A stretch of DNA of 43,842 bases from Candidatus Kapaibacterium sp. (GTDB taxonomy: Bacteria > Bacteroidota > Ignavibacteria > Kapaibacteriales > UBA2268): positions 1 through 43,842 of the forward strand of contig JAPLFL010000124.1 of assembly GCA_026390695.1 (NCBI GenBank), read 5' to 3'. Position numbers and translations under genes: made by a program. Below the pieces are notes generated by a model that worked only from the letters and a program-made list of their open reading frames with translations, made no database searches and was not told the DNA's origin. Shown here piece by piece: positions 15,845 through 43,842 of this stretch (within the stretch, counting starts at the first letter, position 1; each line of letters opens with the position of its first letter).

Positions 15845-16054
15845 GTCTTCTGGCAGCAAGATTACTACTTCTTGCAATGAAAATGAGTCTTCTGTCGTCG
15901 AGATTACTACTTCTGGCAATGAAAATGAATCTTCTGCCGTCGAGATTACTACTTCTGGCAATGGAAATGAGTCTTCTGTCGTCGAGATTACTACTTCTGG
16001 CAATGGAAATGAGTCTTCTGTCGTCGAGATTACTACTTCTGGCAATGAGAATAT
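15845..16054. repeat. 42-bp tandem repeat, five copies
   Basis: Five adjacent 42-bp units each begin GTCTTCTG or ATCTTCTG and contain GAGATTACTACTTCTGGCAA. Because 42 is a multiple of three, several frames on both strands stay open, giving 14-residue repeat translations (for example VEITTSGNENESS). None has a credible start or gene context, so it is treated as a minisatellite. Confidence 0.8.
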
Positions 16055-20435: not shown

Positions 20436-20546
20436 CCCACTTTAAAAAAGTGGGAAAATCTAAGAGCTAATCTCATAAATCTTGCTTCTGTCATTTTTGC
20501 GAATGCAGAAATCACCTAAAGAGGTTCTGCAAGGAGATTCCCACTT
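20436..20546 (+). terminator. Hairpin after the hydrolase gene (possible terminator) within a larger inverted repeat
   Basis: CCCACTT (20436-20442) pairs with AAGTGGG (20448-20454) over a 5-nt loop. AAGTGGGAA...TCT (20448-20461) is complementary to AGATTCCCACTT (20535-20546), so alternative folds are possible. The loop region of the larger fold contains the degenerate palindrome. There is no T tract, so termination is uncertain. Confidence 0.4.
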
Positions 20547-20693: not shown

Positions 20694-20903
20694 TCATCTG
20701 ACAGAGGAAAAATGTCATCTGACAGAGGAAAAATGTCATCTGACTGAGGAAAAATGTCATCTGACAGAGGAAAAATGTCATCTGACAGAAGAAAAATGTC
20801 ATCTGACAGAAGAAAAATGTCATCTGACTGAGGAAAAATGTCATCTGACAGAAGAAAAATGTCATCTGACAGAGGAAAAATGTCATCTGACAGAGGAAAA
20901 ATG
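20694..20903. repeat. 21-bp tandem repeat, ten copies
   Basis: Ten head-to-tail units of the form TCATCTGAC(A/T)GA(G/A)GAAAAATG occupy exactly 210 bp. Variants (CAGAGG, CTGAGG, CAGAAG) are mixed, showing old divergence or copy exchange. All frames are open through it, on both strands, which is a result of the period. Confidence 0.9.
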
Positions 20904-21004
20904 TCTTTAAACTTCATTATTTATATTTATTTGCTGTTTAATGAGATAATAACTTCGTATGATCGCAATTTAACTATGTTAATTATTATTTTTATTATGA
21001 TTAT

Positions 21005-21415
21005 GTCATTCCTGCGTGTGCTGGAATCCCCTACATTTCATCTTATAAGGATTTATATTTGCACAGATATGAAAAAATTATTCTTAGTGTCATTACTGCG
21101 AATGCAGGAATCCCCTACAATTCATCTTATAAGGATTTATATTTGCACAGATATGAAAAAATTATTCTTAGTGTCATTCCTGCGAATGCAGGAATCCCCT
21201 ACAATTCATCCTATAAGGATTTATATTTGCACAGATATGACAAAATTATTCTTAGTGTCATTCCTGCGAATGCAGGAATCCCCTACAATTCATCTTATAA
21301 GGATTTATATTTGCACAGATATGACAATATTATTCTTAGTGTCATTCCTGCGTGTGCTGGAATCCACTACAATTCATCTTATAAGGATTTATATTTGCAC
21401 AGATATGAAAAAATC
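21005..21415. repeat. 84-bp tandem repeat, five copies, each with a REP-like palindrome
   Basis: Units start with GTCATTCCTGCG at 21005, 21089, 21173, 21257 and 21341, the last incomplete. Each starts with the palindrome ATTCCTGC-n4-GCAGGAAT (GTGT-type with CTGGAAT in copies 1 and 5), then a fixed tail containing AAGGATTTATATTTGCACAG. The array ends 45 bp before the barrel gene start and may sit in its leader. Confidence 0.9.
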
Positions 21416-43605: not shown

Positions 43606-43640
43606 ATTTATAGTAAAAATCTCCTAAAAACATCACGGTT

Positions 43641-43842
43641 ATTCCTGCGAATGCAGGAATCCACCTCAAAAAAATCACGGTCATTCCTGCGAATGCAGGC
43701 ATTCCCCTCAAAAAAATCACTGTCATTCCTGCGAATGCAGGAATCCCCCTCAAAAAATTCACTGTCATTCCTGCGAATGCAGGCATTACCCACAAAAAAA
43801 TCACTGTCATTCCTGCGAATGCAGGAATTCCCCTCAAAAAAA
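43641..43842. repeat. 42-bp tandem repeat with REP-like palindrome, at least five copies
   Basis: ATTCCTGCGAATGCAGG begins at 43641, 43683, 43725, 43767 and 43809, and the array runs to the window edge. Units are joined by an A-tract linker (CTCAAAAAAATCAC). After GCAGG the units alternate AAT, CAT, AAT, CAT, AAT, implying that pairs of units (84 bp) were duplicated together. It is not a CRISPR array because the linkers are the same. Confidence 0.92.

Follow-up and report, generated by a model that had tools for sequence, protein, structure and literature searches.

The tandem arrays of this genome are mostly non-coding satellite DNA of constant unit size and variable sequence, and across unlike sequences their units are mostly 21, 42 or 84 bp long, both within and outside REP elements. 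The 43,842-nt stretch analysed here (hereafter the window, C115:1-43842 of a 4.63-Mb genome in 129 contigs) carries four such arrays, for which TRF returned periods of 42, 21, 84 and 42 with 0% indels in each. An earlier reading of the letters alone (the sequence-only reading) had described all four periods as multiples of 21 bp (21n), and TRF bears this out. We consider that a lineage-specific duplication process with a putative ruler of two helical turns is our best guess for the origin of this regularity, held a little short of probable.

Tandem arrays in the window, the genome and its relatives

The positions of the four arrays, and of two genes that contain arrays elsewhere in the genome, are collected in Table 1. 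The remaining TRF rows of the window scored 47 or less, besides two sub-period rows of the same arrays (107 and 95). Unit-by-unit listing of the window arrays showed that the units hold their length while the copies vary by substitutions. For array 1, TRF gave 15845-16052 (period 42, 5.0 copies, 92% matches) together with a weak period-21 row, and comparison of the unit halves found 10 of 21 positions alike in phase (P = 0.017), indicating a weak 21-bp sub-structure. The same test found no 42-bp sub-structure in array 3 (8 of 42 in phase, null 11.1), which rules out its 84-bp unit as two diverged 42s; its palindromes are likewise 84 bp apart. The array positions previously proposed were broadly right, except that array 3 begins at 21004 and the start of array 4 lies about 15 bases before the one given. 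Arrays 1 and 2 had also been said to span exactly 210 bp each, but array 2 has two further matching bases and spans 212. The near-equal spans look like a coincidence, because 21n arrays in the genome sample range from 43 to 411 bp, a range that excludes one coding array of period 210. The further view that these two arrays are unrelated in sequence is mostly right, although their best match reaches 13/21 (shuffle P = 0.037).

Table 1. Coordinates of the window arrays and of two array-containing genes
Feature	Coordinates	Strand	Description
Array 1	15845..16054	.	Five 42-bp units, each possibly two diverged 21-mers
Array 2	20694..20905	.	Ten 21-bp units TCATCTGACAGAGGAAAAATG plus two bases; 10.1 copies in TRF
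Array 3	21004..21414	.	4.9 units of 84 bp (TRF), each a REP-like palindrome plus ~57 bp of filler
Array 4	43626..43842	.	5.2 units of 42 bp (TRF), each with a REP-like palindrome and filler; truncated where the window ends
Lnt-like (apolipoprotein N-acyltransferase-like) gene	L014:374-2167		42-bp REP array, in frame, flanked by the LNT_N (aa 13-172) and CN_hydrolase (aa 346-552) matches
Radical-SAM/BATS gene	L022:9876-11618	minus	21-bp array of the array 2 family (C107 twin) forming an in-frame tail, aa ~492-570, ~80 residues

To examine period lengths more widely, TRF was applied to 40 further stretches that, with the window, amount to 675,174 bp or 14.6% of the genome. Rows scoring below 70 were dropped and overlapping rows were merged into arrays; in one TRF array listing periods below 8 were also dropped. 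Of the 57 merged arrays, 42 had 21n periods: 21 (18 arrays), 42 (18), 63 (2), 84 (3) and 210 (1). Among the arrays judged non-coding the proportion was 36 of 47, against an expectation of 1 in 21 (P ~ 3e-38), the other eleven having periods of 6, 7, 14, 18, 43, 44, 46, 62, 89, 122 and 284; a purely mechanical ORF rule in place of judgement gave 33 of 41. Exact direct repeats of at least 14 bases in the same sample told the same story. The distances with most loci were 42 (40 loci), 21 (34), 84 (24), 63 (21), 126 (15), 105 (13), 147 (11) and 168 (9), no other distance exceeded 5, and 31/32 and 52/53 were absent from the 25 commonest distances. The enrichment for multiples of 21 that the sequence-only reading had proposed to look for genome-wide is therefore favoured, as far as a 14.6% sample reaches. 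Units of 41, 43, 44, 46, 50, 85 and 86 bp and others also occur; the 21n rule is strong, not absolute. It holds for short arrays too: 8 of the 10 non-coding arrays with 2.7 copies or fewer are 21n, and 28 of the 35 longer ones. Since low-copy arrays already follow the rule, it does not need a long array.

We compared these figures with stretches of 31 genomes from other genera within the family or order (1,436,832 bp in total, 9.6 to 160 kb each). Only 6 of their 43 arrays were 21n, as against 42 of 57 in the window's genome (Fisher P = 1.8e-9). Two of the six (G002) resemble leucine-rich coding repeats, one (G014) amounts to three heptamers, and that of G037 sits inside a long ORF. Although 17 of the 31 relatives yielded no array in the stretches sampled, four (G006, G012, G014 and G015) match the window's genome in arrays per Mb, so that it is the period, not the number of arrays, that distinguishes this genome. 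A second genome of the same genus was not found among 59 relatives. Satellites of 21n period are thus found in the window's genome and are not the rule in the relatives sampled. In G014, which belongs to the same family, 9 of 21 arrays are heptamer arrays of differing sequence (L066, L068, L069, L145 and L148) and, as here, unit length is constant over several sequences in one lineage. Unlike those, the units of the window's genome show no 7-bp harmonic above z = 1.6, and decayed heptamers were rejected as their origin on that ground.

Fixed-length, varied-sequence satellites of some bacteria remain an unexplained class. Those of Subirana and Messeguer reportedly include classes of 22/44 and 52 nt. 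In 2021, these authors described tandem repeats of constant size and variable sequence in Bacillus and other bacteria, among them B. weihaiensis, where 29 of 32 repeats are 20-21 nt long (PMC8161180, Table 4); nucleoid proteins or small RNAs were proposed for Bacillus, function not being shown (PMC8161180). The arrays described here are like them in that one length dominates the genome across several unrelated, mostly non-coding families. They also fall in a similar size class, since the published satellites include a 20-21 nt class and a few of 40-41 nt (PMC8161180). Species-specificity is reported for those satellites; the comparison made here is with stretches of 31 relatives of other genera, where 21n is not the rule. 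On the other hand, 42 is here as common as 21, 84 is a unit without sub-structure, many units consist of REP palindromes with different fillers, and the host is not a Bacillus, one window protein bearing a Por secretion tail. Our literature search found the Subirana and Messeguer papers and no titles on a 21/42/84 series. Overall, this genome adds a strong new example to the known constant-size satellites, and with it the 21/42/84 series and the argument from fillers that follows.

One palindrome, many fillers

Arrays 3 and 4 carry a REP-like palindrome, ATTCCTGC-GNAT-GCAGGAAT, with an 8-bp stem that begins with AT, a 4-nt loop and, in most units of both arrays, the tag TGTC. CGTC-1 REP elements (dRS3 of Neisseria) are described with the same stem length, loop and AT start (PMC3733652). 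The tag differs, TGTC standing here in place of CGTC, and for this reason we class the palindrome as similar to CGTC-1 and not as a member. Head-to-tail arrays, moreover, are common here, whereas that paper calls head-tail dimers negligible in CGTC families. RAYT expansion was rejected as the cause of the arrays, as RAYT (Y1) transposases are not special to this genome: it has 4 matches and is one of 18 genomes, out of 36 searched, that have some. CRISPR was likewise discarded, the fillers recurring within each array and not being unique spacers. A lone degenerate copy of this palindrome was seen by eye at window positions 20489-20514, about 200 bp before array 2.

We searched the whole genome for the palindrome core GTCATTCCTGC. 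Exact pairs spaced 21 to 51 bp numbered 59, of which 41 were at 42 bp, 10 at 41, 6 at 50, and single pairs at 40 and at 21; counted as loci from the pair list, 28 were at 42, 6 at 41, 5 at 50 and 1 at 21. Five pairs lay 52 to 82 bp apart, namely one at 69 and four that are double steps of near-41 arrays. The range from 83 to 113 bp contained 37 pairs: 19 at 84 (12 of these double steps of 42-bp pairs), 6 at 85, 4 at 86 and the remainder, one or two per distance, at 83, 91, 93, 99, 101, 102 and 111. Within array 4, exact pairs start at 43680, 43722 and 43764 only and none begins later in the array. Further core matches occur at C115:46758 and 58855, and since the contig runs on past the window, array 4 is truncated at the edge of the window, not at a contig end. 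Thirty of the 59 pairs and part of those at 83-113 bp were used as held-out loci, which added ~110 kb of sequence and 37 further arrays; 23 of these are 21n and five have a period of 41, in a set that is biased towards REP pairs by having been fetched with the REP pattern.

Many core pairs carry one dispersed filler, of the family ...GAGACTGTGTGAAAAC..., which points to a common origin for many of them. In the retrieved sequence (the core-pair counts above being for the whole genome), the full palindrome with seven different fillers gives 42 bp at seven loci (L108, L158, L160, L174, L190, L196 and window 43638), and two more fillers give 41 (L155; L176 with L184). Over the 13 inner bases of the seven fillers the mean identity is 3.8/13, no higher than in shuffles, although L108 and L174 are alike at 9 of 13; the fillers have in common CCCC-like starts and CT/CG ends. 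A second palindrome class is also spaced at 42, with two distinct fillers, at L009, L158 and L167, its other pairs, at 33, 35 and 56, being loose matches. Because the same palindrome with unlike fillers is mostly 42 bp long, unit length is largely set regardless of sequence: length is largely held over differing sequence, to within one base. This combination of one palindrome with several fillers, seven at 42 and two at 41, separates length from sequence and so renders the question testable.

Other spacings are found in the full-palindrome class, namely 84 (7 pairs), 85 (5), 86 (3), 94 (2), 126 (2), 83, 93 and 127. Those of 85-86 and 93-94 appear to stem from a dispersed composite element. At L165, L188, L194, L195, L200, L201 and L210 we noted such an element, in which the REP palindrome is accompanied by a GTGTGAAAAC-like motif and the palindromes stand 84-86 bp apart. 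A five-unit array of 41 bp persists in the same genome, and the array at L098:15446, apparently of the second palindrome type, has 46 bp. Two adjoining arrays at L094:10111-11232, of 43 and 44 bp, are built on a palindrome around CATCCAATG and are also exceptions to 21n.

Outside the palindromes, units were compared as 71 21-mers cut from 40 arrays, some of them coding. Most pairs resemble each other no more than shuffles do; 143 of 2443 are alike at 13 or more of 21 positions, against ~63 in shuffles, and the excess comes from a few families. Diverged 21-mers could be discerned inside some units of 42, 63 and 84 bp (L008, L010:16022, L011, L019:7946 and L093), and were looked for in the REP-type units, where none was shown. 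Array 2 has a twin at C107:39919-40127 with 95% identity, and no resemblance was seen between their flanks when 60 bases on each side were set side by side.

Coding content, helical phase and RNA folding

As 21 bp is also seven codons, we asked whether the arrays could be protein heptad repeats, which as a general explanation is scarcely credible. Ten arrays were judged coding (two in L007, L013, L014:16825, L017, L019:5325, L021, L097, L101:13470 and L107:18657), on the strength of long ORFs and a heptad look and before the count of 36 in 47 was made, so that heptads were already set aside when that count was reached. Pfam backs a real gene for L007:694, L013 and L017 only, L014:16825, L021 and L007:18186 lying outside the scan. 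Some of these arrays do read as heptads under synonymous preference: DTDKKFL in L007:694 (two synonymous changes to one non-synonymous), TDRKFQD in L017:4814 (1:0), AKFQATD in L019:5325 (2:0), and L107:18657 with 5:0; L097, treated as coding, shows no such preference (1:3). In one frame (HLTEEKC) the two variable columns of array 2 are both synonymous, a number too small to decide the matter. Five arrays were counted as non-coding despite an ORF of at least 118 aa (L009:1191, L009:1273, L009:12990, L014:930 and L022).

Among the 30 indel-free 21n arrays taken as non-coding, to which the codon-phase test was restricted, variable columns scored 76, where the null gave 80.1 (sd 3.4; P = 0.92), and show no codon phase. 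The 3-bp harmonic over 32 units was likewise weak (z = -1.0 for A, -0.6 for purine and 1.3 for A/T), although the 20 longer units show a 3-bp component in A/T content (z = 2.2). Coding heptads thus hold for a few arrays and are rejected for the remainder by the codon-phase test, in agreement with the earlier opinion that the arrays are mostly non-coding and a codon-based reason less likely. Because the period is divisible by three, arrays are nevertheless able to survive within genes, as the Lnt-like gene of Table 1 illustrates.

Twenty-one bp corresponds to two helical turns, and the sequence-only reading was correct on this point. It had gone on to suggest phased bends at A-tracts, which found no support: A4/T4 tracts are present in 22 of 32 units, and intergenic DNA predicts 22.1. 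Here and below the null is random intergenic DNA of the same genome, as a permutation null breaks up A-runs, and the 32-unit set excludes five coding arrays, and also three arrays that are second members of their families. A/T content at 10.5 bp gave z = 0.9 over the 32 units, 2.8 over the 20 longer units and -0.8 over the twelve 21-mers. A modest 10.5-bp component exists over the 32 units for A (z = 3.1) and purine (z = 2.7), and among the twelve 21-bp units alone no 10.5-bp component reaches z = 2. With A-tracts at expectation and the A/T signal not significant over 32 units, phased A-tract bending was rejected; a two-turn period alone does not imply bent DNA. The five-unit 41-bp array, besides, would drift out of helical phase, and this speaks against strict phasing as the selected property.

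We also considered it very improbable that the arrays act as RNA, either as small RNAs or as sponges, with a period set by RNA structure. The first 126 bases of array 4 have a strong predicted fold (z = -5.0) and those of array 2 a moderate one (z = -2.6 and -2.8 on the two strands), and transcription has been reported for the 52-nt class of B. coagulans (PMC8161180). Folds elsewhere are weak (array 1, z = -1.1 and -0.5; array 3, -1.5; L094, 0.5; L105, 2.1; L108, 2.9; L011, 0.3), by which a fold common to all arrays was rejected, and within the window nothing reached the Rfam gathering threshold.

How the unit length may be set

In the process that we favour, the length of the unit would be fixed at the first duplication by a process blind to sequence, one that would measure about two or four helical turns, for example through paired nicks or through a strand-exchange complex bound to a single face of the helix. 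The arrays would then grow and even out via slippage or unequal exchange, and may themselves have no cellular function. A ruler acting at birth is favoured because low-copy arrays obey the rule and because length is largely blind to sequence. Against it, low-copy arrays may be remnants of longer ones, some of them come from shared families, and units of 41, 43, 44, 46, 50, 85 and 86 bp exist. A fuller version, in which a sequence-blind duplication machine with a two-turn (21 bp) ruler makes units of 21, 42 and 84 bp from any DNA, REP palindromes and their neighbouring bases included, and is absent or differently set in the relatives, seems to us possible and rather doubtful. If the ruler reading is true, the ruler rather than the arrays is the thing to find.

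The principal alternative is selection for spacing, whereby a polymerising protein or a nucleoid scaffold would need sites two turns apart and only 21n arrays would be kept. We regard it as unlikely. The modest 10.5-bp component in A and purine is in its favour, as is the low number of indel events per substitution in 21n arrays, 10/265, compared with 60/532 in the arrays of relatives (P = 0.0007; coding arrays are in each set, and periods below 15 were dropped for this genome and below 12 in one of the relatives sets); unbalanced indel events occur in only two of 41 21n arrays. Compared with other arrays of the same genome (13/158), however, the ratio is not significantly different (P = 0.08). 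A short motif pointed in the same direction: GGAAAA/TTTTCC is present in 10 of 26 non-REP arrays, where intergenic DNA would lead one to expect 0.96, although it is the best of many k-mers tested and some of the 26 arrays belong to one family. None of the nine held-out arrays that were classed by eye as non-REP and 21n contains it, and for that reason we do not lean on it. Selection is also hard to reconcile with low-copy arrays that already obey the rule, with the five-unit 41-bp array, with the scarcity of 21n among the relatives sampled and with arrays that lie inside genes. Near-misses of 41 to 46 bp fit measurement with a small error better than a scaffold that needs exact phase.

Many of the 42-bp pairs might instead have been copied from one dispersed REP element and not born independently. 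The dispersed filler common to many REP pairs speaks for such shared ancestry, and so do the 21-mer families present at two or more loci and the excess of similar 21-mer pairs; it leaves the unlike 21-mers and the unlike 42-bp fillers unexplained, and as a full account we find it quite improbable. Shared ancestry does account for part of the array count, and a single ancestor of all units finds no support among the 21-mers. That the periods are an artefact of a 21-mer or 41-mer de Bruijn graph is barely conceivable. The exact two-copy 41-bp repeat at L013:691 could have arisen in this way, but copies elsewhere differ by substitutions (265 mismatches in 41 arrays), units of 84 bp exist, and the assemblies of the relatives do not display the pattern, though how each was assembled is not given.

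Some proteins encoded in the window were also compared with named sequences. The Por secretion tail of the protein mentioned above scores above the Pfam cut-off, and a second protein has a match below it. For the neighbouring glycosyltransferase, the best-scoring homologues elsewhere, among the matches listed, are 28-29% identical. For the S15 peptidase six named loci were compared, and two of them, which lie on 3-4 kb contigs, are clearly related. One window protein has two clear named matches, in MAGs labelled Lokiarchaeota (46%) and Ignavibacteriae (42%).
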